Assembly: GCF_014653115.1 (NCBI RefSeq)
Contig: NZ_BNAD01000001.1
Span: 62,001-126,000, forward strand
DNA: 64,000 bases
Origin: Nocardioides flavus (ex Wang et al. 2016)
Lineage (GTDB): Bacteria > Actinomycetota > Actinomycetes > Propionibacteriales > Nocardioidaceae
Direction of reading: 5' to 3'
Shown: positions 32,409 through 56,632 of the stretch, piece after piece
How the letters are laid out: the number at the start of each line of letters is the position of its first letter
Numbering within the stretch: position 1 is the first letter of the stretch
Program-made: the position numbers and the translations under genes
Notes under the pieces: model-generated
Database searches by the model: none
The model's input: only the letters and a program-made list of their open reading frames with translations
What the model was told of the DNA's origin: nothing

Positions 32409-32487
32409 GGCCGCGGTCGCGTAAGATCTGCGGGCCGCAGCCGCATGGCCGTATGCGCGCGTGACGTACTCACGGGGGAAAGCGAAA

Positions 32488-38239: not shown

Positions 38240-38282
38240 TGACTCCTGTCCTCGCGACCATCCAAAAGATAAGAGTTCCCCT

Positions 38283-39506
38283 TCATGAACCCCACTCCCG
38301 TCGGGCCAACTGCCGGTCAACGAGAAGAACCCCTATACCCTGCAAGCCGAACAGCACGGACGCCGCCGTCGCCACTCCAATTGCACCCCACGCCGCAGCG
38401 ACGGGGAAGAAGGTAAGGGAAAGGACCCCAGAGATTATGCCGATTCTGGAACTAGCATTCACACCGCCGCGTCCGGTGACACGGGACATCGCAACTCTTG
38501 CGTGCCCTTGCACTAGGACACCCGGCAGCAGAATTAAGACCAGCAAAGGCACTTCGGGGAAGGTTGGCAGGATATATGGGAACAGAGTTACTACACCCAC
38601 TGCGATAACTGCGGCGCTCACTGTGGTCATCCATACGTGGAGAGCATGAAGAGTTCGATCCCTGTCCCGTTTTTGTTGCCGGTCAGCGACCGCCTTCCGG
38701 AAGGCTAAGAGACTGAACGCCTCAGATATCAGCCACGTTAGTTCGCTGATCGGCGCCGCCACCGAGTACACACCGACCGTCGCTGGAGGAGCAGTGACGC
38801 CGAGGGCCACGACTGGCAGCCTGTTGAGTACCTGCGTTCCGACCGTTCCGGCATGCGCACGAAGTGAGTGGGACAGAAGCCGCCGCCTTTGGGCGCCATG
38901 ATATTCCGGGGCGAACCACGTGCGCCGCCGGAAAACGTAGAGCGCCGAGGCAAACAAACTGCTGAGCCATACCACCAGGAATGGCGTCACAGTCGGAAAC
39001 ACGAGCAGTATCGGAATGCCCGGAAAGACCATCATCAGTCCCTGGATCAGCCAACCACGCTTGAACCCCTCATCGTCTCCTAGTGCTTGGCACGCCCTCA
39101 GAATGAACAAGTTGAGTACGACGAGGGCGGCGCCCATCCCAGTGACAAGCACCAGCGCCGCGGTATCCGCGTGGTCAGTGGCTAAGAGGAATCCGGACCA
39201 CACGACGCTCGCAATGAAGATGCCGAAGGAGATCCTGGCTGCCATACTGAGGCCCACTCGGGGGGCTAATTCATTTCCTTCGCTGACCTCTTTAAGGACA
39301 CCCACGTGGAGGCTGCTGAATCCCAATGCGCCAATGATATTCGACGCCGCCAGAACGAATGCTATCTGTCCTCGGCCCTCCGGGCCCAGGAGGAATGCAG
39401 TCATGAAGACGGTAATGACAGACGAGGTTGCGGCGACGAAGTGCGCCGTCAGGAGGGCGAAGAGTGGTTTTACCCTATCCACCGCATGCCCCCAGTTTCC
39501 GCGCAT
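38283..39506 (-). CDS. Wzx-type polysaccharide flippase
   Basis: This 407-residue protein has about 12 membrane helices and the MATE/PST organisation: VKPLFALLTAHFVAATSSVITVFMTAFLLGPEGRGQIAFVLAASNIIGALGF at the start, then helix pairs to LGVTAPPATVGVYSVAAPISELTWLIS and the C-terminal IGIISGVLSLTFFPVAAAWGAIGVATAASVLFG. It would flip the lipid-linked repeat unit to the outer face for Wzy. It is 44 bases upstream of the polymerase start and lies in the less GC-rich core of the locus. Confidence 0.85.
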   Translation of the reverse strand: MRGNWGHAVDRVKPLFALLTAHFVAATSSVITVFMTAFLLGPEGRGQIAFVLAASNIIGALGFSSLHVGVLKEVSEGNELAPRVGLSMAARISFGIFIASVVWSGFLLATDHADTAALVLVTGMGAALVVLNLFILRACQALGDDEGFKRGWLIQGLMMVFPGIPILLVFPTVTPFLVVWLSSLFASALYVFRRRTWFAPEYHGAQRRRLLSHSLRAHAGTVGTQVLNRLPVVALGVTAPPATVGVYSVAAPISELTWLISEAFSLLAFRKAVADRQQKRDRDRTLHALHVWMTTVSAAVIAVGVVTLFPYILPTFPEVPLLVLILLPGVLVQGHARVAMSRVTGRGGVNASSRIGIISGVLSLTFFPVAAAWGAIGVATAASVLFGLQGIGVLLVDRQLARREWGS

Positions 39507-39631
39507 GACGGAGTACCGATTGCGACCTCAGCGCCTCGGTAGTTCGCCCACACGGTCGGGTTTTCATGGACGTCCGTCTTGTGAAATCGCCGCCTGCGCC
39601 CAGTGGACGCGACTTAGGCCAGGTAGGAGCA

Positions 39632-41767: not shown

Positions 41768-42813
41768 ACGCCGACCGCCCCCTTCCAGGCATCCGTCCAC
41801 ACGTCGAATGAATAATGCGCCCGCACAGCGGAGATGGCCGTATCACCGCGACGGCGGCGCTCCGCCGGTGAGGAGTGGAGCAGCGACGTGATGGCGTCGA
41901 TCCAGTCATCCAGCGTGTTTGCGGCTAGCCCGTCGAACCTCGACAGAGCCAACTTGTTGGCGCCCACTGGAGACCCGACCATGGGCAGCCCTGACGCGGC
42001 GTACTGCAGAAGTTTGTACGCGCATTTGCCGCGGGAGTACTCGTCGTCGCTCAGCGGTCCCAGCGCGACGTCCGCCGCGGCCAGCAGCTCGGGCGTCGAC
42101 TGCGGGTTCCACGCGGCTCTGTCGGTCAACCCGTCCAGCTCGGGGTGCTCGACCTCCTTCGGCACTGAGATCAGAGTCAGCCTCGCTCCCGTGCGCCGGT
42201 GGACCTCTCGGAGAGCTGGTGCGATGTCCAGGAGGTACCGCTCGGTCGACGGCGATCCGAGCCAGACGAGCCTCGGCCGGTCAGTCAGGTCATAGGTCGG
42301 CTTGTGCTTATACGCCGCCGGCTCCACGCAGGTCGGGATGACCGTGACATCGTGGGAGTACCGGGCCGCGTACTCGGCGAGGTATTCGTTACCGACGATG
42401 ACGTGATCGGCCGACTCCATCGAACGACGACACTTGGGCTCCTTGCCCAGCATTCGCCGCCAACCCTGACGATCCGCGAACAACGCGTCGTCCAGGTCAT
42501 AGACACCCCGTCGGGCGCTCTGCAACAGCCGCGACTCGAGCCCGCCCGAGCTCCAGGGGCTCGCCTCGCGCGACAACAGGAGCACGGAGTCTCGCACGCC
42601 CACCACCATGGATCGGGTCCGGCGCTCGGCCTGCACCACCGCCGCAGGGTGGGAGGCAATGGAACCCAGCCCGTTCCTCCCCAGCCCGGCGTACTCACCT
42701 CGCCGGGCAGACAGATTCAAGTGATCCAGCCATTCGTACAGACGGACCCGCGTGCTGGGGGCGGCAGGCCCGTAGGGCGACATCACAACGAAGGACTCGG
42801 CATCAGGCGGCAT
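41764..42813 (-). CDS. Glycosyltransferase (GT4/GT-B-like)
   Basis: This 349-residue GT-B fold protein has RPRLVWLGSPSTERYLLDIAPALREV (donor-binding domain start), TRDVTVIPT-like HDVTVIPTCVEPAAYKHKP, and AAADVALGPLSDDEYSRGKCAYKLLQYAASGLPMVGSPVGANK, the family GT4 C-terminal pattern. The N-terminal part (SPYGPAAPSTRVRLYEWLDHL) resembles glycosyltransferases of S-layer or capsule loci. Sugar specificity cannot be told. It overlaps asnB by 11 bases and the GT-SDR fusion by four, so the three genes are co-translated. Confidence 0.85.
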   Translation of the reverse strand: MPPDAESFVVMSPYGPAAPSTRVRLYEWLDHLNLSARRGEYAGLGRNGLGSIASHPAAVVQAERRTRSMVVGVRDSVLLLSREASPWSSGGLESRLLQSARRGVYDLDDALFADRQGWRRMLGKEPKCRRSMESADHVIVGNEYLAEYAARYSHDVTVIPTCVEPAAYKHKPTYDLTDRPRLVWLGSPSTERYLLDIAPALREVHRRTGARLTLISVPKEVEHPELDGLTDRAAWNPQSTPELLAAADVALGPLSDDEYSRGKCAYKLLQYAASGLPMVGSPVGANKLALSRFDGLAANTLDDWIDAITSLLHSSPAERRRRGDTAISAVRAHYSFDVWTDAWKGAVGV

Positions 42814-44674
42814 TGCTGTCCCTCAGCCACATCTCCAACACCAGCAACCCGTAACGGAGGTAGGTCAGATTGCGGTCCGCGTACCCCGTCCCGTCGACAA
42901 GCTCAACTACCGCGTCCCGATCGATGAAGTCGAGCACGCGAGCATCGGGCGCCAGTACCAGGTCCTGGACCATTGGCCGCAGCCCGCCGGCCAGCCAGTC
43001 CGACATGGGGATCTCGAAACCGCGCTTGGCGCCGTCGAGCACCTCCGAGCTGAGCAGGCCGCGGTAGCTCTCACGCAGCAGACCCTTGGGGGTGCGCTTC
43101 GGCAGTCGGACCTTCGGCGGGAGCGACCACACGTAATCAGCGAGCCGGTGGTCGAGGAGCGGCGACCGCGCCTCCAGCGAGTGGGCCATGCTGGCTATGT
43201 CCATCTTGACCAGTAGGTCGGACAGCAAATTGATGCGGATATCGCTCAGCAGCTGCTGGTCCAGTGCGCTGAGCCACGGCACACGGGTGGCCGCAACGAG
43301 TCTCTCCGTCGGCTCACAGTGCCTACCCCGCCAGATGGCGGTCTTGTCGCCCTCGCGCAGCATGTCCGTGGTCCAGGCCAGATAGCGCTCGTCTGCGGGA
43401 AGTCGGAGACCACGTGCGACTCGCAGGGCGAGTCCCAAAGGCCCTCTTCGCGCGACCGAGCGCGGCACCAGCGACTGCATCAAGCCGGCCGCCCCACCGA
43501 CGAGCCGCGCGCGCGGAACCATGAGGTGCGCCGCCAGGTGGCGCCGATAGCCACCGAAGACCTCGTCGCCTCCATCGCCATTGAGGACTACGGTCACGTG
43601 CTCGCGCGCCAGCGCCGAGATGGCAAGTGAGGGGATTGCGCTCGAATCCGCAAAGGGCTGGTCGTAAGCCCGGACGACTTGTTGGACGCCGGCCACCGGG
43701 TCAAGCGTCAAGGGAAGAACCGTGTGGCGGATGCCGAGCGTGGCGGCCGTGCGAGCTGCAACGTCCGACTCATCCAGTTCTCCGCTCGTCTTGACCGTGA
43801 ACGCCTGGAGTTCTCCACCGAGGGCTCGGGCCGCCTCGTAGCCGACCACTGAACTGTCCACCCCGCCCGACAAGAAGATCCCCAGAGGCACGTCCGACCG
43901 CAGCCGGATTCGCGTCGCCTCAGCGATGAGCTCCCTGACCCGCTTACCTGGGTCGCCCAGCGGCTCGGCGCTCCCCTGCTGGGCGACACCCTCGATGACA
44001 GGACTCCAGTAGGAGGTGGTGCGAGAGCGCCCGGCCCGATCCGTCACCATTACCGTGCCCGGCTCGAGAGTCAGCACACCTTCCCAGATGGTGGCTGGCT
44101 GCGGCACTACTCCCAGGGAGAGGTAGTCGTAGACGGACTGCGGCCGAACCCGCCTGTCGAGGCCTGCAGCCGCCAGCATCGGGGCCAGGCCCTTGAGCTC
44201 AGACGCGAAGGTCAACCCACCCTCGGGAAGGCCTGCGTAGTAGAGCGGCTTCTTGCCGAACCTGTCGCGAGCCAGCACAAGCTCGTCCGAGCGACTGTCG
44301 GCGATGGCCACGGCGAACATGCCTACCAGGTCGTCGACGAAGCGGAGTCCCTTTCTCAAGTACGCCGCGAGAACAACCTCCGTATCGGAATTGGTGAGGA
44401 ACCGGTGGCCCGACCCCTGAAGGCCTTGCCGCAGTTCCTTGTAGTTGTAGATCTCACCGTTGAAGACGATGGCGACCTTGCCCTCGGCTGCCGTCATCGG
44501 CTGGCGACCGTCGACGGGGTCAATGACAGCCAGACGGGTCATTCCCAACGCGGCATCCCCGAGGCGGATGCTCCCCATGTCGTCGGGACCGCGGTGGCGG
44601 ATGCATGCGAGCGCTGCCGGCAGCGCGTCCGCGACCTGTTCCGGCGCACGCCAACTGCCTGCGATACCGCACAT
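42803..44674 (-). CDS. asnB: Asparagine synthetase (glutamine-hydrolysing), AsnB type
   Basis: This 623-residue protein has the N-terminal nucleophile Cys2 (MCGIAGSW) of a class II glutamine amidotransferase domain (residues 1 to ~200: IRHRGPDD, FNGEIYNYKELR). The synthetase domain carries the P-loop SGGVDSSVVGYEAA and the LNGDGGDEVFGGYRRH and SLEARSPLLDHRLADYVWSLP motifs. In polysaccharide loci AsnB paralogs probably amidate a uronic acid, for example a HexNAcA made by the dehydrogenase at 33411; that is inference. It starts eight bases after the WecA-like stop. Confidence 0.93.
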   Translation of the reverse strand: MCGIAGSWRAPEQVADALPAALACIRHRGPDDMGSIRLGDAALGMTRLAVIDPVDGRQPMTAAEGKVAIVFNGEIYNYKELRQGLQGSGHRFLTNSDTEVVLAAYLRKGLRFVDDLVGMFAVAIADSRSDELVLARDRFGKKPLYYAGLPEGGLTFASELKGLAPMLAAAGLDRRVRPQSVYDYLSLGVVPQPATIWEGVLTLEPGTVMVTDRAGRSRTTSYWSPVIEGVAQQGSAEPLGDPGKRVRELIAEATRIRLRSDVPLGIFLSGGVDSSVVGYEAARALGGELQAFTVKTSGELDESDVAARTAATLGIRHTVLPLTLDPVAGVQQVVRAYDQPFADSSAIPSLAISALAREHVTVVLNGDGGDEVFGGYRRHLAAHLMVPRARLVGGAAGLMQSLVPRSVARRGPLGLALRVARGLRLPADERYLAWTTDMLREGDKTAIWRGRHCEPTERLVAATRVPWLSALDQQLLSDIRINLLSDLLVKMDIASMAHSLEARSPLLDHRLADYVWSLPPKVRLPKRTPKGLLRESYRGLLSSEVLDGAKRGFEIPMSDWLAGGLRPMVQDLVLAPDARVLDFIDRDAVVELVDGTGYADRNLTYLRYGLLVLEMWLRDSNAA

Positions 44675-44682
44675 GAAGACTC

Positions 44683-45669
44683 TTACCTCTTACCCGAATT
44701 GTTCTTGACGGCATCGCCATCAACTGGTCGCTTCCGTACGGCGGGTGACGCAACGTAGGCCAAGCCGACCAAGATCGCCAAGATAACTGCAATCCAGCTC
44801 TCAGATACCCATCTCACAATCAGAAGCATTGACGAAAGCACGCCTGCCGCTAGAAACGCGACACCCAGATGTGGCAGCCCTGAGTCCACCCAGCGTTGAT
44901 ATGCATGCAGACGGTGTGGCTCCCCGGGGCGCCCCCCGCGTCTCATCAGCAGCAACATGGCGGCTGCGGTCTCGAGCCCATACAACGACATGGGCGCGAA
45001 CGAGGTCACCACGTCAGTTCCAGAAGCCAGTGCCAGGGCGGTCATGGACCAGATGAGCGAACCCAGCGCATAGCTGCCGACGTCTCCCAGGAACACTTTC
45101 CCTCGACTGTTGAGCAACAAGAAGCCGAATGCGGACGCCGCCGTCGCCCAAGCGAGAGTCTCCAAGGACCCCTCGCCTACCAGCACGAACCATAGCGACA
45201 CGACAATGGTCATGGCCGCCGAGATCCCGTTGATGCCGTCCATGAAGTTCATTGCATTGACGAACGCGACCCAACTGAGCGCGAGCGCGAGCAGAGCAAG
45301 AAGACCCATCGTCGGCATCTGGGGACGAACAAGTGCTACTGCAAGGAGAGCCAGGACACACTGCGCAAGCAAACGTGCCCTCACCTCGAGTCCGAACCTA
45401 TCGTCGGCGAGCCCGAGCAAGCCGACGAGGACGGCTACGGCAATCGAGCTTGCCAGATCTCTCGGAAAACCAGTGGCGAGCAGACCAGCCACGACACCTA
45501 CCAGCACCGCCAGCCCCCCACCCCGCGGCACAGGACTCGAGTGAGATGACCTGGCGTTCGGTCGATCCACAAGGCCCAAACGAGGAAGGACGCGTACAAG
45601 TGCGACAGTCGCAGCCCAGGACGCCAGAGCAGCGACTAGTGCGGGGAGCAACATCGAGGCTTTAAGCAT
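44683..45669 (-). CDS. Polyprenyl-phosphate GlcNAc-1-phosphate transferase (WecA/MraY family)
   Basis: This 328-residue membrane protein with about ten helices has LGLVDRPNARSSHSSPVPRGGGLAVLVG, LGLADDRFGLEVRARL (the D-D-x-x-x-x-x motif) and NAMNFMDGINGISAAMTIV (N-x-x-N-x-x-D-G). These are the MraY/WecA/WbpL signatures. It would transfer a HexNAc-1-phosphate to undecaprenyl phosphate and initiate the repeat unit. It overlaps a small reading frame at 45636-45779 and starts four bases after the PglF-like stop at 45673. Confidence 0.9.
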   Translation of the reverse strand: MLKASMLLPALVAALASWAATVALVRVLPRLGLVDRPNARSSHSSPVPRGGGLAVLVGVVAGLLATGFPRDLASSIAVAVLVGLLGLADDRFGLEVRARLLAQCVLALLAVALVRPQMPTMGLLALLALALSWVAFVNAMNFMDGINGISAAMTIVVSLWFVLVGEGSLETLAWATAASAFGFLLLNSRGKVFLGDVGSYALGSLIWSMTALALASGTDVVTSFAPMSLYGLETAAAMLLLMRRGGRPGEPHRLHAYQRWVDSGLPHLGVAFLAAGVLSSMLLIVRWVSESWIAVILAILVGLAYVASPAVRKRPVDGDAVKNNSGKR

Positions 45670-45779
45670 TCCTCACCCAACACCACGAACGTGTCGGTCA
45701 AGAGGTCTGTGGCCACTCCGCTCAGCCTGCGACGCACGGCCGTCGGATCCCCGACGAAGATCAACGGAGTGCTGCTCAT
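45636..45779 (-). CDS. Short unassigned reading frame overlapping PglF-like 3' end and WecA-like 5' end
   Basis: This is a 47-codon frame starting MSSTPLIFVGDPTAVRRRLS and running into the WecA-like gene in another frame. Its first ~33 codons have the high GC3 of a real gene, higher than the overlapping last 36 codons of the PglF-like gene. It could be the degenerate start of a lost gene, or an artefact of the overlap. No function can be assigned. Confidence 0.3.
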   Translation of the reverse strand: MSSTPLIFVGDPTAVRRRLSGVATDLLTDTFVVLGEECLKPRCCSPH

Positions 45780-47649
45780 CTCTTTCCGAGCGGGGGACAG
45801 CGGATGCTCCTTCCGCGTGGAGAACAGGCATGCCCGGATCGCGCAGGTGTACCCAGTCCTCGAAGGCCTGGAGCAGGCCGAGGTGGTGGGCGGCGCCAAG
45901 ATCGAACGAGCGTACGACGTCGACCGACAGGGGTTGCACGTGCGCGTGGGAGACGAGCGGGTGCTTCGACCGCTCGTCGCTCTCGGCGGCGCCGAAGAGC
46001 TCCTCGTGCAGCTTCTCGCCGTCGCGGAGGCCGGTGTAGACGATCTCGATGTCCTTGCCCGACATCGCGATGAGCTGCTGGGCCATGTCGACGATCCGCA
46101 CCGGCTCGCCCATGTCGAGGATCATCACCTCGCCGTCCTCGCCGATGGCACCGGCCTGGATGACGAGCTGCACCGCCTCCTCCACCGTCATGAAGTAGCG
46201 CGTGACCTCGGGGTGCACCACGGTCACGGGGCCGCCCGCCTCGATCTGGGCCGTGAAGGTGTGCAGCACCGACCCGCGCGAGCCGAGGACGTTGCCGAAC
46301 CTCACGCTGAGGTAGGCACCCTCGGCCCGGCGTGACATGTCAGCGGTCAGGCGCTCAGCGGCGCGCTTGGAGTAACCCAGGACGCTGGTCGGGTCGGCCG
46401 CCTTGTCGGTCGAGATGTTGACGAAGGTGGTCACGCCGACAGCGTTCGCAGCCTCGAGGACGTTGGCCGTACCGAGCACGTTGGTCTTCATCGCCTCGTG
46501 GGGATACTGCTCGAGCATCGGCAGGTGCTTGAGCGCCGCGGCGTGGAAGACCACCTCGGGACGGCGGTCCTCGAAGACGCGCCGCAGCGCGACCTCGTCG
46601 CGGATGTCGTTGAGCACCACGTCGGGGCTGTCGAGCAGGGCGCGGCCATGGATCGAGAGCTGCACGCCGTGCAGCGCCGACTCGTCGCGGTCGAGCATGA
46701 TCAGCTCGGCGGGGCTGAAGCGGTGCAGCTGGCGGCACAGCTCGGAGCCGATCGAGCCGCCGGCGCCGGTGACCAGCACCCGCTTGCCGGTGACGTAGCC
46801 CGCGATTGCTCCCAGGTCGGTGTCGATGGCGGCGCGGCCCAGCAGGTCGCGCATGTCGACGTCGCGCACGTCGCGGACGTCGGCCTTGCTGGCGAACGTC
46901 TCGGCGAAGGACGGCAGCACCTTGGCGGTGACGTTCAGCTCGGTGCAGCATTCGACGACAGCCTTGATCAGCTCCTTGCTGGCGCTGGGGATCGCCACGA
47001 CCACCGTTGTCGCACCGGTGGCACGCACGACGCGCTCGAGGTCGGCGACCGTGCCGAGCACCGGGACGCCGAAGTGGCGCCGCTTGCGCATCCACCGGTC
47101 GTCGTCGAGGAAGCCCACCGGGCGCAGGCCCGCGTCCGGGTGGGAGCGCATCGAGTGCACGAGCCGGGCGCCGCTGGCACCCGCACCCACGACGATCGTC
47201 GGCTGCCCCTCAACCGTCGACACGAGTCCCAACCGCAGGGTGAGGCGGCGCCAAGCCGCGCGGGTGGCGATCATGGCGGACAGGGCCAGGAAGGTCGCTG
47301 TCACCGGCAGGCTGCGAGCGACCCAGTACGGGTCGACCCAGGCGTTGGCCACGAAGACGATGCCTCCCGCGGCGAACGCTGCCGAGCTGAGGACCAAGGT
47401 CTCCTCGTTGGTGGCGACGCCGACCCGGCCGAGGTAGACCCGCCCCAGCATCCCGAACAGCCAGTGCAGGCCGATCGCGGCGGTAGCCACCAGCGCTGCG
47501 TTTCGCCAGATCTCGGGCGGCACCGTGTCGTAACGAACGACGACTCCGAAGAAGTAGGCGGCGGCGAGCGCCAGCGCGTCGAGCGCCATCAGCATCGCCG
47601 TCCTGCGCCCGCGCACAGCAGACTCGAGCCCCAGCACAGTCATCGACAT
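45673..47649 (-). CDS. Membrane-bound UDP-HexNAc 4,6-dehydratase (PglF/WbpM/CapD family)
   Basis: This 658-residue protein has four N-terminal helices (LMALDALALAAAYFFGVVV; AALVATAAIGLHWLFGMLG; LVLSSAAFAAGGIVFVANA; LPVTATFLALSAMIATRAA), a Rossmann-like linker domain (PTIVVGAGASGARLVHSM, VVVAIPSASKELI) and the SDR dehydratase domain with KRVLVTGAGGSIGSELCRQL, FHAAALKHLPMLE, VNISTDKAADPTSVLGYSKRAAERL and VRFGNVLGSRGSV. It makes a UDP-4-keto-6-deoxy-HexNAc. The C-terminal ~36 residues (after PVLHAEG) have poor codon use and may be extended by a frameshift. ATG at 47649 or 47643. Confidence 0.9.
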   Translation of the reverse strand: MSMTVLGLESAVRGRRTAMLMALDALALAAAYFFGVVVRYDTVPPEIWRNAALVATAAIGLHWLFGMLGRVYLGRVGVATNEETLVLSSAAFAAGGIVFVANAWVDPYWVARSLPVTATFLALSAMIATRAAWRRLTLRLGLVSTVEGQPTIVVGAGASGARLVHSMRSHPDAGLRPVGFLDDDRWMRKRRHFGVPVLGTVADLERVVRATGATTVVVAIPSASKELIKAVVECCTELNVTAKVLPSFAETFASKADVRDVRDVDMRDLLGRAAIDTDLGAIAGYVTGKRVLVTGAGGSIGSELCRQLHRFSPAELIMLDRDESALHGVQLSIHGRALLDSPDVVLNDIRDEVALRRVFEDRRPEVVFHAAALKHLPMLEQYPHEAMKTNVLGTANVLEAANAVGVTTFVNISTDKAADPTSVLGYSKRAAERLTADMSRRAEGAYLSVRFGNVLGSRGSVLHTFTAQIEAGGPVTVVHPEVTRYFMTVEEAVQLVIQAGAIGEDGEVMILDMGEPVRIVDMAQQLIAMSGKDIEIVYTGLRDGEKLHEELFGAAESDERSKHPLVSHAHVQPLSVDVVRSFDLGAAHHLGLLQAFEDWVHLRDPGMPVLHAEGASAVPRSERDEQHSVDLRRGSDGRASQAERSGHRPLDRHVRGVG

Positions 47650-47809
47650 GTCCCCACATGTGTTGATCGCCTCAGAGAGGCAGCAAGACCCAGTTCCCCG
47701 AGAACGGTCATCCCTGATCCTAAGTCAAGCGTGCCCTGACGCGTGACCATCTCGCGGCACGGACGTGCAAAACCACCCGCGGGGGTGGACAGGCGAGGGG
47801 TGAGTTCCA

Positions 47810-49597
47810 TCACTCCTCCCCGCTGGCGCACGGCGCCGGGACGAACTGCTTGCCGCCGCCGCGCTGGACGCCGGGCGTGCTGATGAGCTCGACGCCGCCG
47901 GAGTGGTCGGCACCCGAGGTCGCGCGCCAGGTCAGGGTGACCACGTCGCCCGGCTCGAGCAGGATCGGCACCGAGACGATCGGGCGGCCCTCGAAGGTGC
48001 GGTTGGTGCCGGTCGACCGCACCCCGTTGACGACGACGTCGGTGATCTCGCCGCCGGTGGGCGCGACGAGGTCGAAGACGTTGAGGTGGTCGCCGCGCGC
48101 CACCCCGTACTCTCCCGACCCAGTGACGGTGGGCGGCAGGGACGCGGCGTCTGCGGGAGCGCTCGAGTGGATCCGGAGCTGGCCGCTGAAGCCGATCTCG
48201 CCGGCCGCACAGGAGACGCTGCTGATCCGCGCGTCGTAGTCGAGGAACCAGCCCATCTTGGAGCCGGTGGCGTCGTTGACGTAGACGCCGGCCTGCGCCG
48301 CGCCGCCGTCCTCACTGGGGAAGGAGCCGGCGACTCGGGTGCCGTCGAGCTGCTCCTGCTCGGCCTCGACCGCGGAGTGCGCCAGCAGGCGCCCCTCCGT
48401 GGCGCCGCGCGACAGGGCGGTGACCAGCGCGGACGGGTCCGTCCCGGGGGCGAGGAGCCGGTCGAAGACCGTGGTCAGCACCTCGCCGAAGAAGGCGTCC
48501 TCCGCAGCGGAGTCCTCGGCATAGCGCAGGTACGGCTGGTGGAGGATCTCGTCGACGAAGTTCTCGCTGGTCAGCCGTCGACCGTCGACCTCGAGCGGCC
48601 CCGTGGCCTCGAGCAGGTAGGACAGGGCGACCGGGTCGACCGACAGCACCCCGTCGACGTCCTGACCGGTCTCGAGCTTCCACCGGGCGGCCATCAGCTC
48701 GCCGGCCCGCTCGAAGTCGGGGATGAAGACAGCGTCCTGGAACCAGGTGCCTGGCTGGTCGAACCAGATGTCCCGCTCTTCCTCGGTCAGCGGCAGGATG
48801 GGCCGGTCGAGCTCGCCGAACTCGCTGGCCGCGACCGTCTCGCCGAGCGTGATCGTGCCCTTGTCGGCCCTTAGCGGCGCCATCAGGCCGGGCATGCCGC
48901 CGAGCGAGCGGGGCTCGGCATTGTTCTGGAAGACGAGGAGGTAGTCGCGGGCGCCGTCGCGACCGAGCATCGCCGGGAGCAGCTCGGCCGCCCGGGTCGC
49001 GCCGTCGAGCGTGCCGACGCCCTCGTCGACCTGGCGGCTCAGGGCCTCGAGCTGCGGTCGCAGCTCGCGCACCAGTCCCTCGACCCGGATGCCGTCGAGC
49101 TCGTCCTGCGCGCGGACAAATCCGTCGCGGGCCTCGGCGAGCGGGGCGGCAGCACGCGCCACCCGGTCGACCGGGATGCGACCGCCGCGCGGGGCGAACG
49201 TCTCGGCGCTCAGCCCGCTGTCGACCAGCGGGCCGGCGCCGTCGCGGGCGACGATGTCGACCGCGCGGGAGACCCGGGCCGCGGCGTCGAAGTCGTCGCC
49301 GAGGGCCGGCAGCGCGCTGAGCACCTGCCACGTGGGCCCCGACGTACGCTCGGCGGCCGCACCCGCGTGCGCCTGGAGCTCGTCGACCACCGCGGCGCCG
49401 TCGCCGGCGTCACCGGCCAGCGCCTCGGGCAGCGCGACGGCCTGGGCGCGGGCAGCCGACAGGTCGCGCTGGACCTGCCAGACCGTCCAGCCGGCCCAGA
49501 GGACCCCGGCGACCACGACCGCCAGTGCGGTCGCGAGCACCCAGCGCCACCGGCGCCCGGTCGCGCGCTCGGCGCGCTCTCGTGTGGTTGTCGCCAC
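47810..49597 (-). CDS. DUF4012 membrane-anchored protein (copy 2)
   Basis: This 595-residue protein has one N-terminal helix (RWVLATALAVVVAGVLWAGWTVW, about residues 18-40), a coiled region, and the DUF4012 core: GARDYLLVFQNNAEPRSLGGMPGLMAPLRADKG, the same 'L-x-x-x-x-N-x-E-x-R-x-x-G-G' strand as in the copy at 15222 (LLNPSEQRFSGG). It also has WFQDAVFIPDFERAGELMAARW and VDGVLSVDPVALSYLLEATGPLEV. It is exported and membrane-anchored, role unknown. Placement between the dehydratase and a second Wzz/kinase ties it to polysaccharide assembly. Confidence 0.82.
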   Translation of the reverse strand: MATTTRERAERATGRRWRWVLATALAVVVAGVLWAGWTVWQVQRDLSAARAQAVALPEALAGDAGDGAAVVDELQAHAGAAAERTSGPTWQVLSALPALGDDFDAAARVSRAVDIVARDGAGPLVDSGLSAETFAPRGGRIPVDRVARAAAPLAEARDGFVRAQDELDGIRVEGLVRELRPQLEALSRQVDEGVGTLDGATRAAELLPAMLGRDGARDYLLVFQNNAEPRSLGGMPGLMAPLRADKGTITLGETVAASEFGELDRPILPLTEEERDIWFDQPGTWFQDAVFIPDFERAGELMAARWKLETGQDVDGVLSVDPVALSYLLEATGPLEVDGRRLTSENFVDEILHQPYLRYAEDSAAEDAFFGEVLTTVFDRLLAPGTDPSALVTALSRGATEGRLLAHSAVEAEQEQLDGTRVAGSFPSEDGGAAQAGVYVNDATGSKMGWFLDYDARISSVSCAAGEIGFSGQLRIHSSAPADAASLPPTVTGSGEYGVARGDHLNVFDLVAPTGGEITDVVVNGVRSTGTNRTFEGRPIVSVPILLEPGDVVTLTWRATSGADHSGGVELISTPGVQRGGGKQFVPAPCASGEE

Positions 49598-50313: not shown

Positions 50314-51696
50314 GTGGAACTGTCCGACTACTTGCGCATCCTGCGCCGACGCTGGCGCCTCGTGGTCGCCACCCTCCTGGTCGTGCTCGTGGGTGCCGCG
50401 CTCGTCACCTGGCGCACCACCCCGCAGTACCAGTCGACGACGCAGCTCTTCATCTCCACCAGCGCGTCGTCGTCAGCGGAGGCCTACCAGGGCAACCTGT
50501 TCAGCAGCCAGCGGCTCTCGTCGTACGCCGACCTGGCCGCCGGCACCGAGCTCGCCACCCGCGTCGTCGCGGAGACCGGCAGCGACCTGACGCCCAGCGA
50601 GCTGGCCGCCAAGGTGACCGCGCAGGCCTCCCCCGAGACGGTGCTGCTCAACATCTCGGTCACCGACCCCGACCCGGTCGTGGCGCAGCAGCTCACCCAG
50701 ACCTACGGCGAGGAGCTGATGGCGCTCGTCGCCGAGCTCGAGACGCCGCCCGGGCGCAACAAGCCCGTCCTCAAGGCCACCATCGTCGACGCGGCGAGCC
50801 TGCCCACCTCGCCCATCTCGCCCAACCCGGTGCGCAACCTCGGCCTCGCCCTCGTCCTCGGCCTGCTGCTCGGCGTCGGCCTCGCCGTCGTGCGCGAGCT
50901 GCTCGACACGAGCGCCAAGTCGGCCGACGACGTCACCACCGCGCTGGACGCACCGATCCTCGGCACCTTCGCCTTCGACGGCGAGGTCGGCAAGCGCCCG
51001 CTGCTCACCCAGCTGACCTCGCACGAGCCGCGCTCGGAGGCCTTCCGGGTGCTGCGCACCAACCTGTCCTTCGTCGACATCGACGCCACGTCCAAGGCGA
51101 TCGTGATCACCAGCGGCCTGCCCGGCGAGGGCAAGTCGACCACTGCGGTCAACACCGCCCTGGCGCTCCAGCAGGCCGGCGAGCGCACCCTGCTCATCGA
51201 CGGCGACCTGCGCCGCCCGCAGGCCGCGGAGCTGCTCGGCCTCGACGGCACGATCGGGCTCACCACCGCGCTCGTCGGCAAGGTCACCGCCGACGACGTC
51301 ATCCTCACCCACGGCTCCGGCCTGCACGTGCTGCCGTCCGGGGCGATCCCGCCCAACCCCTCGGAGCTGCTGCAGTCGCAGGCGATGGCCACGCTGCTGC
51401 GCGAGCTGCGCGCGGCGTACGACGTGATCATCATCGACGCGCCGCCGCTGCTGCCGGTCACCGACGCCGCGCTCATCGCCTCGCAGGTCGACGGCGCCGT
51501 CGTCGTCGTGCGGCACGGCCGCACCACCCGCGAGCAGCTCGCCGCCGCACGCGAGCGCCTCGACGCCGTCGGGGCACACACCCTCGGCGCGGTCTTCAAC
51601 ATGGTGCCGAAGAAGGGCCGCGGCAACTACGGCTCGGGCTACGGCTACGGGTACGGCTACGGCTACGCCCCCAAGGCGGGACCCGCCGAGGCCTGA
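50314..51696 (+). CDS. Wzz-type co-polymerase / tyrosine autokinase (BY-kinase), complete
   Basis: This 460-residue protein begins with the GTG at 50314. Helix 1 is RLVVATLLVVLVGAALVTW (about residues 15-33), helix 2 LGLALVLGLLLGVGLAVVREL (about 171-191), with an extracytoplasmic Wzz loop between. The kinase has Walker A SGLPGEGKSTTAVN (about 267-280), A' LLIDGDLRRPQ and Walker B DVIIIDAPPLLPVTD. The tail GYGYGYGYGYAPK is the tyrosine cluster used for autophosphorylation. It controls chain length and export of the Wzy-made polymer and is probably regulated by an LMW phosphatase. GGGGGA at 50297-50302 is the ribosome-binding site. Confidence 0.93.
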   Translation: MELSDYLRILRRRWRLVVATLLVVLVGAALVTWRTTPQYQSTTQLFISTSASSSAEAYQGNLFSSQRLSSYADLAAGTELATRVVAETGSDLTPSELAAKVTAQASPETVLLNISVTDPDPVVAQQLTQTYGEELMALVAELETPPGRNKPVLKATIVDAASLPTSPISPNPVRNLGLALVLGLLLGVGLAVVRELLDTSAKSADDVTTALDAPILGTFAFDGEVGKRPLLTQLTSHEPRSEAFRVLRTNLSFVDIDATSKAIVITSGLPGEGKSTTAVNTALALQQAGERTLLIDGDLRRPQAAELLGLDGTIGLTTALVGKVTADDVILTHGSGLHVLPSGAIPPNPSELLQSQAMATLLRELRAAYDVIIIDAPPLLPVTDAALIASQVDGAVVVVRHGRTTREQLAAARERLDAVGAHTLGAVFNMVPKKGRGNYGSGYGYGYGYGYAPKAGPAEA

Positions 51697-51778: not shown

Positions 51779-53137
51779 ATGGACCCACGCCATGCCGAGC
51801 TGTTGGAGCACGCCGACCGTGAGGAGCTGGGACGCCGCCTGCGCGCCGCGCGCCTGGCCCGCGGACTCACCCAGGGCGAGGTGGCCGACGACCTCATGTC
51901 GGTGGCCTTCCTCTCCCGCATCGAGTCCGGCCACCGCGGCCCGTCCTACCCCGCGCTGACCGAGCTCGCCACCCGTCTCGGCGTCACCGTCGACTCGCTG
52001 CTCGGCGAGCCCGACCGCCACGTGGTCGACGAGATCCGCCTGGCGCTCGACTATGCCGAGCTGTCGCTGGAGTCGGGCCAGCCCGCGGACGCCGAGACAC
52101 ACCTCCGGAGCGCTCTCGAGCGGCTCGACACCTCGCGCATCGACGGCATGCGCGACCGGGCCCGGCTGCTGCACGCGCGGTGCCTCGAGGCGACCCAGCG
52201 CGAGGACGACGCGATCGTCGAGCTCGAGGAACTGGCCGACGACGAGCACGTCGACGGCGTCACCCGCATCAAGGCCGGCATCGCGCTGTGCCGCATCTAT
52301 CGCGACACGGGCGACCTGGGCCGCGCCATCGAGTGCGGCCAGCGCGTCATGACCTACGTCGAGGAGGCCGGTCTCGAGGCCTGCGACGAGGCCGTGCAGC
52401 TGTCCGTGACCCTGGCGGCCGCCCACTTCGAGCACGGCGACACCGGCCACGCCGTACGGATGTGCCAGAAGGCCATCGCGCGGGCCGAGTCGCTCGGCAC
52501 GGCCAGGGCACGTGCCTCGGCCTACTGGAATGCCAGCGCCATGCAGGCCCGGCGCGGCGACGTTGCGGCGGCCGTCCCCCTCGCCGAGCGCGCGCTCGCG
52601 CTGCTCGGCGAGGGCCAGGACGCACGCAACCTGGCCCTCCTGCGCGGCGAGGTCGGCCGGCTCCAGCTCGAGCTCGACCCGCCCGCCCTCGACGACGCGC
52701 GGCACAACCTCGAGCAGGCCGCTGCCGAGATGGAGTGGAGCCCGTCCACCTCCTCCGACCGGGCGCAGGTGCTGCTCGGACTCGCGCGGGCCGCGTACCT
52801 CTCCGGCGACGTCCCCGCAAGCCGCGACCTCGTCGCCCAGGTGCACAGCGTCGCCAACGGTCACCTACCGCTCGCCGAGGCTGAGGCCTGGGCGCTGCTC
52901 GGCAGCACCTACGCGGCCGAGGGCGACGTGCCCGAGGCGAGCTCGTGCTTCCAGCGAGCCGTGCTCACTCTCTCGGCCATCGGTGCCGACCGGTCAGCGG
53001 CCCAGCTGTGGTTCGACCTGGCCGACCTCCTCGAGGGCGTCGGTCTGACTGAGGCCGCGTCGGACGCCTACCGCCGCGCGGCGGCGTCGACCGGGCTGCG
53101 GGCGCGCGTGGCGTCCTCCACGTACGCCCGCAGCTGA
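51779..53137 (+). CDS. XRE-TPR regulator (possible peptide receptor)
   Basis: This 452-residue protein has an XRE helix-turn-helix (GRRLRAARLARGLTQGEVADDLMSVAFLSRIESGHRGPSYPALTELATRLGV, about residues 16-68) followed by about ten TPR-type helical pairs (for example RARLLHARCLEATQREDDAIVELEELAD, AEAWALLGSTYAAEGDVPEASSCFQRAVL). That is the architecture of RRNPP/PlcR-type cytosolic peptide receptors, but also of non-peptide HTH-TPR regulators. It faces a 39-codon secreted-peptide gene 20 bases away, tail to tail. Start ATG 51779; a GTG at 51761 is possible. Confidence 0.85.
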   Translation: MDPRHAELLEHADREELGRRLRAARLARGLTQGEVADDLMSVAFLSRIESGHRGPSYPALTELATRLGVTVDSLLGEPDRHVVDEIRLALDYAELSLESGQPADAETHLRSALERLDTSRIDGMRDRARLLHARCLEATQREDDAIVELEELADDEHVDGVTRIKAGIALCRIYRDTGDLGRAIECGQRVMTYVEEAGLEACDEAVQLSVTLAAAHFEHGDTGHAVRMCQKAIARAESLGTARARASAYWNASAMQARRGDVAAAVPLAERALALLGEGQDARNLALLRGEVGRLQLELDPPALDDARHNLEQAAAEMEWSPSTSSDRAQVLLGLARAAYLSGDVPASRDLVAQVHSVANGHLPLAEAEAWALLGSTYAAEGDVPEASSCFQRAVLTLSAIGADRSAAQLWFDLADLLEGVGLTEAASDAYRRAAASTGLRARVASSTYARS

Positions 53138-53157
53138 GTCGGCGACTGCTCAGGCGG

Positions 53158-53277
53158 TCAGCAGCACCAGCCCGTACGGACCTGCTTGACCGGGCCCGCC
53201 TCGGCGGGCGCGGCGAAGCCGGCCAGGCTGACGAGTGCGACGGTGGCGACGAAGAGGCGGGTGGCCTTGCGGTTCAT
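53158..53277 (-). CDS. 39-residue exported peptide, possible signal for the XRE-TPR regulator
   Basis: A short gene encodes a signal peptide (MNRKATRLFVATVALVSLAG..., basic start, hydrophobic core, AxA site) with predicted cleavage after PAEA (residue 27), leaving the mature dodecapeptide GPVKQVRTGWCC. A ribosome-binding site is not strong; GGAG lies nine bases upstream. It is convergent with the XRE-TPR gene, the arrangement expected for a peptide-receptor pair. It could instead be a small membrane peptide or a Cys-rich antimicrobial. No homolog is recognised. Confidence 0.6.
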   Translation of the reverse strand: MNRKATRLFVATVALVSLAGFAAPAEAGPVKQVRTGWCC

Positions 53278-53372
53278 GGTGGACTCCAGGGTGAGTGCTG
53301 GTGTGGGGTTGGGCAGGCTCCCGAGCGTCTGCTGAAGAAATCTTGTCAAAACTAGTGCCGAGTGTCGCGGTG

Positions 53373-53404
53373 TTTGGCAAACTTGGGCAAGTACCACTGG
53401 CAAA
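53373..53404 (-). promoter_or_regulatory. Clustered TTGCC repeats upstream of the peptide gene
   Basis: Read on the minus strand there are three TTGCC copies in 32 bases (TTTGCCA, CTTGCCC, TTTGCCA), spaced 13 and 10 bases. They lie about 100-125 bases upstream of the peptide start and between it and the histidine kinase gene. Regulator binding is inferred. Confidence 0.35.
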
Positions 53405-53517: not shown

Positions 53518-54636
53518 TCAGCGGGGGATCGAGACGCGGACGGTGGTGCCGTGGCCGGGGGCGCTGTCGATCGCCACCTGCCCGCCGTGGGCCTCGACGA
53601 TGGTGCGCACGACGGTGAGCCCCAGGCCCGTGCCGGGCACGTGGAGCCGGCGCGCATTGGCGCCGCGGAAGAACCGGCCGAAGACCTCGTCGAGGTCGTC
53701 GGCCTCGATGCCGACGCCCCCGTCGGCGACGACCAGCTCGAGCCCGCTGTCGCCCTCGTCCCCGACCTCACTGAGCTCGACGGTGACCACGCCGCCGGCC
53801 CGGCTGTAGGCGATCGCGTTGTCGAGCAGGTTGTCGACGACCTGGCGCAGCCGCAGCCCGTCGGCGACCACGACCAGCGACGCTGGGTGCCGGCTCTCGA
53901 GGCGTACGCCCGCGACCTCCGCGTCGAGGCCCGCCGTGTCGACGGCCTCGGCGAGCAACCGCGCCACGTCGACGCGGTACCGGTCGACGACCGCACCCGA
54001 CGACATCCGCGTGGCGAGGAGCAGGTCGGCGACCAGGTGGGAGAGCCGCCGCAGGTTGCGGCGCGCCGCGACGACCTGCCGGTGACCCTCGGCGCCCACG
54101 CCGACCGAGTCGTCGAGCAGCTCGAGGTGGGCCAGCGCGGCGGCGAGGGGCGTACGGAGCTCGTGCGACACCGTCGCCACGAACTCGTCCGCCGTGCGGC
54201 GCTCGGCCTCCGCGGCGGCCTCGGCCGCGTCGAGCCGCTCGACGAAGGCGTGGCGCTCGGTGAGGTCGGCGACCTGGGAGATGAAGTGGATCGGGGCGCC
54301 GCACGGGTCGCGCAGGAGCGTTACCGACAGGTCGCCCATGACCACGACGCCGTCGGAGCGTACGAACCGCCGGGTCGTGCGGTAGGAGTCGATCTCGCCG
54401 GCCAGCGCGCGGGAGACGAGGCGTCGCTCGTCGGCGCGGTCGTCGGGGTGGGTGAGGTCCTCGACGGCGAGCGTGGCGAGCACGTCGGGGTCGTGGCCGA
54501 GCATGTCGCACAGAGCGATGTTGGCGGTAAGGACGTGCCCGGAGGGCGACACGAGCGCCATCCCCACCGGCGAGTGCTCCATGGTCAGTCGCCAGAGGTC
54601 GTCGGTGCCCTGAGCGGGAACCAGCTCTGCGACCAC
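53518..54636 (-). CDS. PAS-domain sensor histidine kinase (soluble)
   Basis: This 372-residue kinase carries a PAS domain (LTMEHSPVGMALVSPSGHVLTANIALCDMLGHDPDVL, about residues 16-55, through VADLTERHAFVERLDAAE), an H box VSHELRTPLAAALAH with the phospho-His, and the N (LDNAIAYSRAGG), G1 (VADGGVGIE), F (VFGRFFRGANAR) and G2 (VPGTGLGLTVV) boxes. No membrane helices, so it senses an internal signal or redox/ligand via PAS. The GTG at 54636 has GAGGGAG upstream; longer frames reach into the intergenic hairpin. No response regulator gene is adjacent (orphan). Confidence 0.9.
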   Translation of the reverse strand: MVAELVPAQGTDDLWRLTMEHSPVGMALVSPSGHVLTANIALCDMLGHDPDVLATLAVEDLTHPDDRADERRLVSRALAGEIDSYRTTRRFVRSDGVVVMGDLSVTLLRDPCGAPIHFISQVADLTERHAFVERLDAAEAAAEAERRTADEFVATVSHELRTPLAAALAHLELLDDSVGVGAEGHRQVVAARRNLRRLSHLVADLLLATRMSSGAVVDRYRVDVARLLAEAVDTAGLDAEVAGVRLESRHPASLVVVADGLRLRQVVDNLLDNAIAYSRAGGVVTVELSEVGDEGDSGLELVVADGGVGIEADDLDEVFGRFFRGANARRLHVPGTGLGLTVVRTIVEAHGGQVAIDSAPGHGTTVRVSIPR

Positions 54637-54730
54637 CGCTGCTCCCTCGACGACACGTCCCGGACACCGCCACCGTAGGGGCACGCGTGTCGCGCGAGAC
54701 GGACTATGGGAGAACCGGACCCAAAATGAG

Positions 54731-54764
54731 GAGATCACCCCGCGCAGGAGCGCGGGGTGATCTC
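54731..54764 (-). terminator. Perfect 15-bp hairpin ending the cysA-sseC operon
   Basis: GAGATCACCCCGCGC pairs perfectly with GCGCGGGGTGATCTC around an AGGA loop, 22 bases after the DUF1416 stop. This is the strongest terminator-like structure in the window. Confidence 0.75.
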
Positions 54765-55090: not shown

Positions 55091-55939
55091 TCAGGCCTCC
55101 CCGGGCTCGTCGCCGAGGGTGATCGGCACGCCGACGAGCGAGCCGTACTCGGTCCACGAGCCGTCGTAGTTCTTGACGTTCTGGTGCCCGAGCAGCTCCT
55201 TGAGCACGAACCAGGTGAGCGAGGAGCGCTCGCCGATCCGGCACAGCGCGATGGTGTCCTTGGAGTCGTCGATACCGACCTCGGCGTAGAGCGCCTTGAG
55301 CTCGTCGTCGGACTTGAAGGTGCCGTCGTCGTTGCAGTTCTTGCTCCACGGGACGTTGAGCGACGTCGGGACGTGACCGGCGCGCTGCGACTGCTCCTGC
55401 GGGAGGTGGGCCGGGGCGAGCAGGCGGCCGGCGTACTCGTCGGGGCTCCGCACGTCGATCAGGTTCTTCACGCCGATGGCGGCAACCGTCTCGTCACGGA
55501 ACGCACGGATGGAGTGGTCCTGCTCGGTCGCGGTGTAGCTGGTCTTCTCGCGCGTGGGCAGCGCGTCGGTCAGCTCGCGGGAGTCGAGCTCCCACTTCTT
55601 GCGGCCGCCGTCGAGGAGCTTGACGTCGGAGTGGCCGTAGAGCTTGAAGTACCAGTAGGCGTAGGCGGCGAACCAGTTGTTGTTGCCGCCGTAGAGCACG
55701 ACGGTGTCGTCGTTGGACACCCCGCGCTCGGACAGCAGCGCCTCGAACTGCTCCTTGTCGACGAAGTCGCGGCGGACCTGGTCCTGGAGGTCGGTGGTCC
55801 AGTCGAGCTTGATGGCGCCACGGATGTGGCCCTTGTCGTAGGCGGTGGTGTCCTCGTCGACCTCGATGAGGACGATGCCGTCGGTGTCGAGGTTGTCCTC
55901 GACCCACTGGGCGGTGACGAGCGAGTTCTCGCGGCTCAT
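55091..55939 (-). CDS. cysA: Thiosulfate sulfurtransferase (CysA2/CysA3-like rhodanese)
   Basis: This 282-residue protein has two tandem rhodanese domains. The catalytic loop in the second is ALCRIGERSSLTWFVLKELLG with the persulfide Cys, identical in pattern to mycobacterial CysA2/A3. DLQDQVRRDFVDKEQFEALL, VVLYGGNNNWFAAYAYWYFKLYGH and LIDVRSPDEYAGRLLAPAHLPQEQSQRAGHVPTSLNVPWSKNC support the family. It transfers sulfur from thiosulfate to cyanide or protein acceptors. ATG 55939 follows a REP-like repeat (55984-56020). Confidence 0.95.
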   Translation of the reverse strand: MSRENSLVTAQWVEDNLDTDGIVLIEVDEDTTAYDKGHIRGAIKLDWTTDLQDQVRRDFVDKEQFEALLSERGVSNDDTVVLYGGNNNWFAAYAYWYFKLYGHSDVKLLDGGRKKWELDSRELTDALPTREKTSYTATEQDHSIRAFRDETVAAIGVKNLIDVRSPDEYAGRLLAPAHLPQEQSQRAGHVPTSLNVPWSKNCNDDGTFKSDDELKALYAEVGIDDSKDTIALCRIGERSSLTWFVLKELLGHQNVKNYDGSWTEYGSLVGVPITLGDEPGEA

Positions 55940-55983
55940 GGTGGATGTGCTCCTAGTTCTTGGTGGATCTTCGGTGTCAGGGA

Positions 55984-56020
55984 CTGGTTTCGAGGCTCGC
56001 TGCGCTCGCACCTCAACCAG
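55984..56020. repeat. REP-like palindromic repeat between DUF4395 and cysA genes
   Basis: CTGGTTTCGAGGCTCGCTGC... to CCTCAACCAG is imperfectly palindromic and related in reverse orientation to 23529-23565. Such interspersed elements recur in Nocardioides-type genomes (recollection, not searched). Confidence 0.7.
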
Positions 56021-56029
56021 CGGAAAGGG

Positions 56030-56500
56030 TCAGACGGTGGCGATGAAGCGGCGGACGAGCAGGTAGACCTCGCATCCCAGGCAGAAGGCGAAGGCCGCGT
56101 TGAGCAGGGCGGCGAGCAGGGCGAAGCCGACCGCGACCTGACCGACGACGGTCGCGCCGGACAGCAGCGCGACCAGGCCGACGAGCGCGAAGGCCAGGCC
56201 GACGGCCTGCGCGAAGCGGGGCGGCTCCGGGGCCTCCCACTCGACGGGCGGGCCCAGTCGCGGGCGCACGAGCGTGCGGAACAGCCAGGCGTGGGGCGTG
56301 GCCTGCACCCCGCGTACGGCGCCGATCGCGAACAGCACCGCCTGCACGGCGAGCAGCGCCACCCCGTACGGAGCGGGCAGCAGCAGCACGGCCACGAGCA
56401 CGACCGCCGTGAGGGCGGCTGCGAGCTGGGGGCCGCGCGGGTCGATGGCCCCGTCCGGGCGGACGCCGGACGCGGCGCGGGGGGTGGTGATGGTGGACAT
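56030..56500 (-). CDS. DUF4395 membrane protein
   Basis: This 156-residue protein has four membrane helices (AAALTAVVLVAVLLLPAPYGVALLAVQAVLFAIGAV; FAQAVGLAFALVGLVALLSG; VAVGFALLAALLNAAFAFCLGC...) and the family ending AFCLGCEVYLLVRRFI, where the conserved F-C-x-x-C-x-x-Y is characteristic of DUF4395 proteins associated with rhodanese and thioredoxin genes. It is probably a sulfur-relay or transport partner of CysA. First gene of the DUF4395-cysA-sseC operon, preceded by a leader peptide. Confidence 0.88.
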   Translation of the reverse strand: MSTITTPRAASGVRPDGAIDPRGPQLAAALTAVVLVAVLLLPAPYGVALLAVQAVLFAIGAVRGVQATPHAWLFRTLVRPRLGPPVEWEAPEPPRFAQAVGLAFALVGLVALLSGATVVGQVAVGFALLAALLNAAFAFCLGCEVYLLVRRFIATV

Positions 56501-56583
56501 GTCTCTCCTGAGGTCGGTCGGCACAGCACGGGGCCGGACGCACCGGGACGTGACCCGGCGCAGGGTCCCAACCGAGGAGCACG

Positions 56584-56604
56584 CCTCCAGCGGGTCGCTG
56601 GAGG
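56584..56604 (-). promoter_or_regulatory. Attenuator-like hairpin downstream of the Cys leader peptide
   Basis: CCTCCAGCG pairs perfectly with CGCTGGAGG around a three-base loop, 28 bases after the leader stop and 84 bases before DUF4395. It could be the switch for leader-controlled expression. Confidence 0.5.
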
Positions 56605-56632
56605 GCAGGGGCTCAGGCGAGCGGTGGGACCG

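Follow-up and report, generated by a model that had tools for sequence, protein, structure and literature searches.

A conserved pairing of an HTH-TPR regulator with a secreted-looking Cys-Cys peptide gene suggests RRNPP-like peptide signaling in Nocardioides and other actinobacteria

Introduction

Do actinobacteria possess peptide-receptor pairs of the RRNPP kind? The question is raised by a locus in Nocardioides flavus (ex Wang et al. 2016), in which the gene of an XRE-HTH and TPR regulator converges on a gene for a 39-amino acid, secreted-looking peptide that ends in two cysteines. Actinobacteria are thought to signal typically through small molecules (PMC10075063), and the surveys of RRNPP receptors, as far as their accessible portions extend, concern Bacillota (PMC10075063, PMC9765709, PMC12700828). 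A 2016 review of actinobacterial quorum sensing does give a 'TPR' receptor type, reported or predicted, for Streptomyces, Rhodococcus, Saccharopolyspora, and Thermobifida (PMC4748050); in the portion of that review available, RRNPP is not named, the entry for Nocardioides is without TPR, and no peptide partner is given. Within the open-access literature, some of it available only as partial text, we found neither an actinobacterial HTH-TPR receptor with a peptide partner nor a Cys-Cys pheromone. This is weak evidence, as preprints were excluded and few subscription papers were covered.

We analyzed a 64,000-nucleotide stretch of N. flavus DNA (the window), to which all coordinates refer.

The small Cys-Cys peptide gene

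The pair consists of the following features.

51779–53137, plus strand: XRE-HTH and TPR transcription regulator, 452 amino acids, putative cytoplasmic peptide receptor (ORF, Pfam, AlphaFold2 model)
53158–53277, minus strand: small secreted-peptide gene, 39 amino acids with a WCC end, convergent with the regulator (ORF; conserved in relatives)
53197–53277, minus strand: predicted signal peptide MNRKATRLFVATVALVSLAGFAAPAEA, with n-region RK, a hydrophobic core, and an AEA cleavage site (read from the sequence)
53161–53196, minus strand: predicted mature peptide GPVKQVRTGWCC, of which the final six residues are the conserved part (pN/pS contrast)
53284–53287, minus strand: GGAG, Shine-Dalgarno-like, of the small gene (read from the sequence; relatives show a similar ..GGAGnCnCC-ATG)

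The coordinates, orientation, intergenic gap, and predicted peptide given in the original prediction all proved correct when the sequence was re-read. The regulator ORF extends from an ATG at 51779 to a stop codon ending at 53137, and the small gene from an ATG at 53277–53275 to a stop codon at 53160–53158 on the minus strand, with 20 bases (53138–53157) between the two convergent stops. The small gene product is MNRKATRLFVATVALVSLAGFAAPAEA-GPVKQVRTGWCC. A longer frame of 100 amino acids with a GTG start is also available, but the ATG start is preferred because it is preceded by GGAG and because the ATG start, signal peptide, and tail recur in relatives.

The product is predicted to be a secreted-looking pre-peptide; export is inferred, and the exact 12-mer mature form is unproven. 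The family signal-peptide consensus reads ..APAEA at its cleavage end. Among 105 convergent peptides of the genus, 92 have an AxA 7–30 residues before the end (13 have none in this range), and the predicted mature length is 10–14 residues in 59. Conservation is concentrated in the tail: pN/pS across 29 close loci is 0.38 for the final six codons and ~1.4 for the linker and signal. These values were pooled over pairs in an ungapped comparison, which inflates the linker and signal value, and they are therefore to be taken as a contrast only. The sequence TGCTGC directly precedes the stop codon in all 29 of these loci. Position –3 is tryptophan in 59 of 90 peptides and otherwise G, T, Y, L, or others. 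Several relatives have two or three tandem copies of the peptide gene at their loci.

The regulator and its relation to known receptors

The HTH of the regulator spans residues 16–73 (Pfam HTH_31, E 3.9e-12; HTH_3, E 5.9e-11), and TPR families (TPR_12 and others) cover residues ~87–435 in the C-terminal part. No family named for RRNPP occurs among its 15 NCBIfam matches or the best 25 of its 29 Pfam matches. An AlphaFold2 model (18 sequences, mean pLDDT 87) has the HTH followed by 18 paired helices. For a profile built from 49 regulators (A1), the best natural match to HTH and TPR together was PlcR (E 6.3e-15, residues 14–239); the profile also matches generic TPR and HTH proteins, and ComR over its HTH. 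The TPR part of the model aligns with RapI (Z 25.4 over 348 residues), NprR (Z 22.5 over 343 residues; 12–13% identity for both), and Rap complexes. The eukaryotic protein LGN, at Z 26.9, scores no lower than Rap, and shape alone is therefore little proof of kinship with RRNPP receptors. Nonetheless, the proposal that the regulator has the layout of such receptors was borne out, with PlcR as the top profile match over the full architecture and Rap and NprR as strong structural matches over the TPR part.

The closest parallel in architecture is PlcR-PapR of the Bacillus cereus group, which likewise combines an XRE HTH with a TPR domain. In that system, a neighboring gene encodes a pre-peptide that is exported and active through its C-terminus, and the regulator acts on the peptide gene; the corresponding likenesses, an exported pre-peptide and a self-regulated peptide gene, are inferred for the Nocardioides pair. 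The latter differs in belonging to Actinobacteria and not Bacillota, in its convergent or divergent gene order, in its C-terminal Cys-Cys, and in that no binding has been shown, and its regulator has a longer TPR domain than PlcR (nine helix pairs in the model). NprR-NprX and Rap-Phr resemble the pair in having a TPR solenoid of similar length and shape and small exported peptides, but are unlike it in sequence, as noted above; Rap has no HTH, and to our knowledge none of the known NprR-NprX or Rap-Phr peptides ends in Cys-Cys. Rgg-SHP and ComR-ComS share the XRE HTH and a TPR-like domain, and their small peptide genes adjoin the receptor gene in differing orientations. Unlike the Cys-Cys (CC) peptide, which has a Sec-like signal with an AxA site, SHP and ComS are without a classical signal peptide.

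We infer that the pair is RRNPP-like by anatomy, assign it to no named subfamily, and regard its host class, gene order, and Cys-Cys end as departures from the known systems. The described range of RRNPP systems, so far as the available parts of the surveys cover it, is Bacillota and their mobile elements, while the loci of this pair belong to the actinobacterial phylum. Since this mismatch is one of range and not of mechanism, it bears on novelty and leaves the pair unassigned to a named subfamily.

Conservation of the pair within Nocardioides

The 39-amino acid peptide, used alone as a query against 58 related genomes, matched four other genomes at E < 1e-4, and in all four the match adjoins a regulator 66–76% identical to that of the window. 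At E values up to 1, some match occurred in 36 of the 58 genomes, mostly as weak fragments of longer frames.

A search of 215 genomes of the genus with the regulator found homologs (E 1e-40 or better) at 124 places in 99 of them, and the stretches around these places yielded three additional regulators. Two regulators extending beyond their contig (L109 and L292) and two cut close behind the gene (L046 and L104) were left out of the count. A partner was counted as an ORF of 18–90 amino acids with an exact CC end and a hydrophobic 11-mer (mean hydropathy > 1.5) that contains no charged residue and no Asn, Gln, or His. As an exact CC end was required, the invariance of this end is partly a product of the rule; the near misses L110 (CCL end), L159 (CCG end), and L251 (internal WCC) were scored as absent.

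By this rule, 97 of 123 testable regulators of the genus have an adjacent secreted-looking CC ORF, which is convergent in 91 and divergent in six. Its presence depends on identity to the window's regulator: 29/29 at ≥60% (the window's own included), 9/9 at 50–60%, 19/25 at 45–50%, 34/44 at 40–45%, and 6/16 below 40%. The 26 regulators without a nearby CC gene all fall below 50% identity. The small gene is present at 29 of the 30 best regulator places, again counting the window's own, with the thirtieth (L046) cut by a contig end, and in 16 of 17 named Nocardioides records, with the seventeenth likewise cut.

The pairing is conserved beyond chance. All 111 unique secreted-looking CC ORFs in the genus loci adjoin a regulator, up to 900 bases downstream of it or up to 750 upstream, and none lies elsewhere in those loci. 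Among signal-peptide-like ORFs of up to 90 amino acids in the same loci, a CC end occurs in 105 of the 167 that are convergent with the regulator and in 8 of the 356 located elsewhere, and six ORFs of this non-convergent kind are divergent partners of regulators. At L160 and L163, four regulators stand in tandem with one CC peptide gene at the end of the array.

The pairing had been predicted to be refuted if homologs of the regulator commonly lacked the small gene. Within the genus this did not occur, with the gene present beside 38 of 38 testable regulators of at least 50% identity and 97 of 123 overall; outside the genus, the gene was within reach of about half of the regulators (52 of 107).

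Spread outside the genus

Profile A1 was searched against samples of the family, order, class, and phylum. At E 1e-60, the phylum sample gave matches in only 4 of 345 genomes besides the window's own; the narrow phyletic range that this suggested was corrected by the class sample, which gave, with the genus itself included, matches at E 1e-35 or better in 58 of its 246 genomes, from 27 of 103 genera. All loci examined belong to the phylum of the window, and no relative was found in the viral contigs searched. One phage record (MT836207.1, positions 32–1117), a fecal 'bacteriophage', does carry a regulator at its extreme end, with 66.6% identity over 80% of the regulator; this is perhaps bacterial DNA inside a phage record.

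Pairing outside the genus follows profile score, with a CC gene at 50 of 77 regulators scoring at least 250 and 2 of 30 scoring below. (Two of the 107 rows, L199 and L270, are one place in genome G743 entered twice, both without a CC gene.) Other genera of Nocardioidaceae have the gene at 14 of 29 regulators, which comprise 8 of the 12 best scoring and 6 of the remaining 17. Outside the family, the CC gene is mostly divergent and ~100–250 bases upstream of the regulator, with tail ends such as WPGMCC, PGMYCC, VDMCC, PGDFCC, HPPTCC, and GTWCC. Nonomuraea gerenzanensis has a divergent CC gene with the end TGDAGCC, and in Streptomyces sp. NBC_01707, a protein ending in DLPLCC (WP_331750220.1) is encoded 1.9 kb from the regulator and was scored as absent. 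On plasmid pSMg1-1 of Streptomyces sp. Mg1 (L272), the regulator (WP_008741298.1) is followed by WP_008741297.1, which is annotated as hypothetical and ends in KDIPLCC. The four remaining named plasmid loci (L273, L275, L276, and L278) have no CC gene nearby. An HTH-TPR regulator and a secreted-looking peptide gene are linked across much of a bacterial class.

Several of these loci have features of their own. At pSMg1-1 (4291–6188), the genes after the CC gene encode another small protein of secreted appearance (WP_008741296.1) and a SARP/BTAD regulator, and a link to secondary metabolism is therefore conceivable. In one other family of the class (L231, L232, L233, and L237), the regulator lies between two different CC genes, the divergent one with an end such as PGDFCC and the convergent one with an end such as GGSDFCC. 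L291 has two tandem regulators, each with its own convergent CC gene and with related ends (GGRWGCC and RGKYGCC). Secreted-looking peptides of ~28–40 amino acids are encoded divergently upstream of regulators of ~29–31% identity at L195–L198, with the ends SFPWGGT, SFPGP, GYPWPK, and GFPWPK, and are possibly a second peptide class without Cys-Cys.

A conserved element at the peptide promoter

Upstream of the small gene are two further features.

53344–53349, minus strand: TTGACA, a conserved –35-like hexamer downstream of the operator-like element, without a clear –10 (alignment of 29 promoters)
53373–53404, minus strand: operator-like element TTTGCCA n5 ACTTGCCCAAGTTTGCCAAA, with three TTGCC repeats, conserved at peptide promoters

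The core of the operator-like element (53373–53392) occurs once in the window and not at all in shuffles. A 19-base core, allowing up to three mismatches, was searched for in 20 genomes, those of the 21 closest regulators minus one truncated at a contig end; every genome had a single match, which by its coordinates lies at the peptide promoter. The reversed pattern, as a control, gave four matches across all 20 genomes. Peptide promoters have the element (in the window, in the form given above) upstream of the TTGACA hexamer, with variants in more distant relatives. Both this promoter element and the C-terminal tail ending in Cys-Cys are conserved.

At the six tandem loci displayed, the element stands only before the distal peptide copy, so the copies are probably on one transcript. 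A scan with the sigma-70 consensus returned no full promoter and no terminator. The operator-like element is likely the binding site of the regulator, for which there are no binding data, and its position upstream of the –35-like hexamer suggests, by inference, activation. No second target gene was identified, the strict operator being confined to the peptide gene in the 20 genomes; weaker sites would escape such a search.

Conserved residues of the predicted TPR groove

Inner and outer positions of the TPR helices were assigned by the TPR register and not from coordinates. The predicted inner positions are more conserved than the outer ones (mean entropy 1.61 vs. 2.16, p = 5e-5). All 91 genus regulators with a convergent CC gene have E137, R172, and W250 (window numbering), and 90 of them have N251. 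Those outside the family that have a CC gene are nearly as uniform (E137 37/38, R172 38/38, W250 38/38, and N251 34/38), while low-scoring ones without the gene are not (E137 9/27, R172 20/27, W250 21/27, and N251 rarely kept). Regulators outside the family that score at least 250 and lack the gene mostly keep the four residues (E137 11/13, R172 11/13, W250 13/13, and N251 8/13), which indicates that these residues track overall similarity as well. Most orphans of the genus, which have no CC gene, also retain all four, though L160_3, L163_3, and L165 have lost every one; where the CC gene is divergent (six regulators of the genus), substitutions affect E137 in three cases and R172 and N251 in one case each. 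Judged from these alignments, E137, R172, W250, and N251 appear to go with a Cys-Cys partner, with overall similarity as part of the pattern.

Tail positions –3 to –8 were compared with receptor columns by mutual information (90 pairs, effective number ~45). The predicted inner TPR positions showed no excess (smallest p = 0.15), and two signal-peptide columns used as controls gave p values of 0.02–0.03. This test for coevolution was null; the sample is small and phylogeny dominates.

Gene order and alternative explanations

The genes on either side of the pair are as follows.

50314–51693, on the strand of the regulator: Wzz/GNVR and tyrosine-kinase-like protein, ending ~80 bases upstream of the regulator
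53521–54738: PAS histidine kinase, beyond the peptide promoter

Conserved synteny alone, in which unrelated genes stay together by vertical descent, could draw support from the PAS kinase, which is retained beyond the peptide gene in 14 of 17 named relatives; the Wzz-kinase gene holds its place in only 2 of the 17. Yet neither gene was found in 40 more distant loci, most of which have the peptide gene. On a FastTree tree of 197 regulators (142 of them paired), from which 17 other-genus regulators examined later are absent, the order of the pair, scored as convergent, divergent, or co-directional (one case, L272), has also undergone no fewer than six changes. Shuffled labels require at least 32 changes, a comparison that demonstrates clustering only. 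Retention of the partner through these rearrangements argues for a functional link over passive synteny, and with the flanking genes not found in the 40 distant loci and the pair rearranged but kept, we rejected pure synteny, which has very little left to recommend it. A toxin-antitoxin or other membrane-peptide module, with the hydrophobic protein acting in the membrane and the XRE protein as repressor or antitoxin, is very improbable as well. It would account for a small hydrophobic peptide beside an XRE regulator, and convergent genes could pair as antisense, but conservation at the protein level lies in the tail past the cleavage site and not in the hydrophobic core, and the divergent order of many families leaves no 3' antisense. 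The type II form was rejected since the genes are convergent or divergent and not a co-transcribed operon. Cysteine-responsive leaders exist in actinobacteria (Canestrari et al. 2020, as cited in PMC9094748, itself available in part), and the mycobacterial polycysteine short ORFs, which regulate a downstream gene according to the same source, resemble the CC gene in being short actinobacterial ORFs with adjacent Cys codons, here the tandem codons just before the stop. Such an attenuator requires a downstream gene on the same transcript, which the CC gene mostly lacks, L272 being the sole counted locus in which the small gene is co-directional with the regulator; most CC ORFs also retain a signal peptide with an AxA site, which sets them apart from the mycobacterial leaders. 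On these two grounds the attenuator was rejected, and we give it next to no credence.

The principal alternative casts the peptide as a dedicated output of the regulator and not as its ligand, that is, as a secreted antimicrobial, metal-binding, or redox-active Cys-Cys peptide, with the regulator sensing something else. Adjacent cysteines suit metal or disulfide chemistry, and tandem peptide copies would fit an output, as would an operator-like element that, in its strict form, all 20 genomes have solely at the peptide gene. RRNPP receptors, however, commonly activate their own peptide gene, so a unique operator fits ligand and output alike. What speaks for a ligand is that the predicted concave TPR face is conserved and carries residues that go with a Cys-Cys partner. 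In addition, no modification or immunity gene was seen among the 14 largest neighbor clusters (L078–L165), each of which is confined to one or two clades with no family recurring across clades; the neighbors were not annotated singly. We consider the output explanation unlikely, albeit not negligible.

Proposed receptor-peptide circuit

We favor the reading that the locus encodes an actinobacterial peptide-receptor circuit of RRNPP-like type, unusual in the C-terminal Cys-Cys of its peptide, at a probability of roughly 70% and in the absence of binding, export, import, or expression data. In this circuit, the pre-peptide would be exported by Sec, cleaved after AxA, perhaps trimmed to its last 6–12 residues, and re-imported through an oligopeptide ABC importer. 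The 4.18-Mb genome has three OppA-type binding proteins (SBP_bac_5), which make re-import possible and nothing beyond that; re-import itself is inferred. The C-terminal Cys-Cys would be bound in the concave TPR groove near E137, R172, W250, and N251, upon which the loaded regulator would bind the TTGCC repeats upstream of TTGACA and turn on the peptide gene in positive feedback. Further targets with weaker sites may also be switched. Cys-Cys would serve as an anchor, and the preceding residues (WCC, YCC, GCC, MCC, FCC, and so on) may constitute a specificity code.

The recurring pairing suggests an overlooked peptide communication between actinobacteria, although action as a density signal is unproven. 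Some 150 receptors have an adjacent predicted peptide (97 in the genus and 52 outside), so inexpensive synthetic peptides of 6 to 12 residues would allow direct tests of peptide signaling in this class. The Cys-Cys end also raises a chemical question, namely whether it exists as free thiols, a vicinal disulfide, or a metal ligand. A broader proposal, which we put forward tentatively and consider rather doubtful, is a class-wide, undescribed family of actinobacterial signaling systems whose pheromones end in Cys-Cys. It would have a constant thiol, vicinal-disulfide, or metal anchor and a variable specificity code, several insulated channels in some genomes, a presence on some linear plasmids, and a coupling to redox or metal state. 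We know of no RRNPP pheromone that is coupled to redox or metal state by Cys-Cys chemistry.

Other features of the window

A stretch of lower GC content (58–70%, against 70–75% around it) occupies positions 30000–48000 and runs into a Polysacc_synt_2 polysaccharide biosynthesis gene (45676–47724, minus strand); it looks like an exopolysaccharide island. On the other side of the pair, a rhodanese protein is encoded beside a DUF4395 protein (55094–56632).
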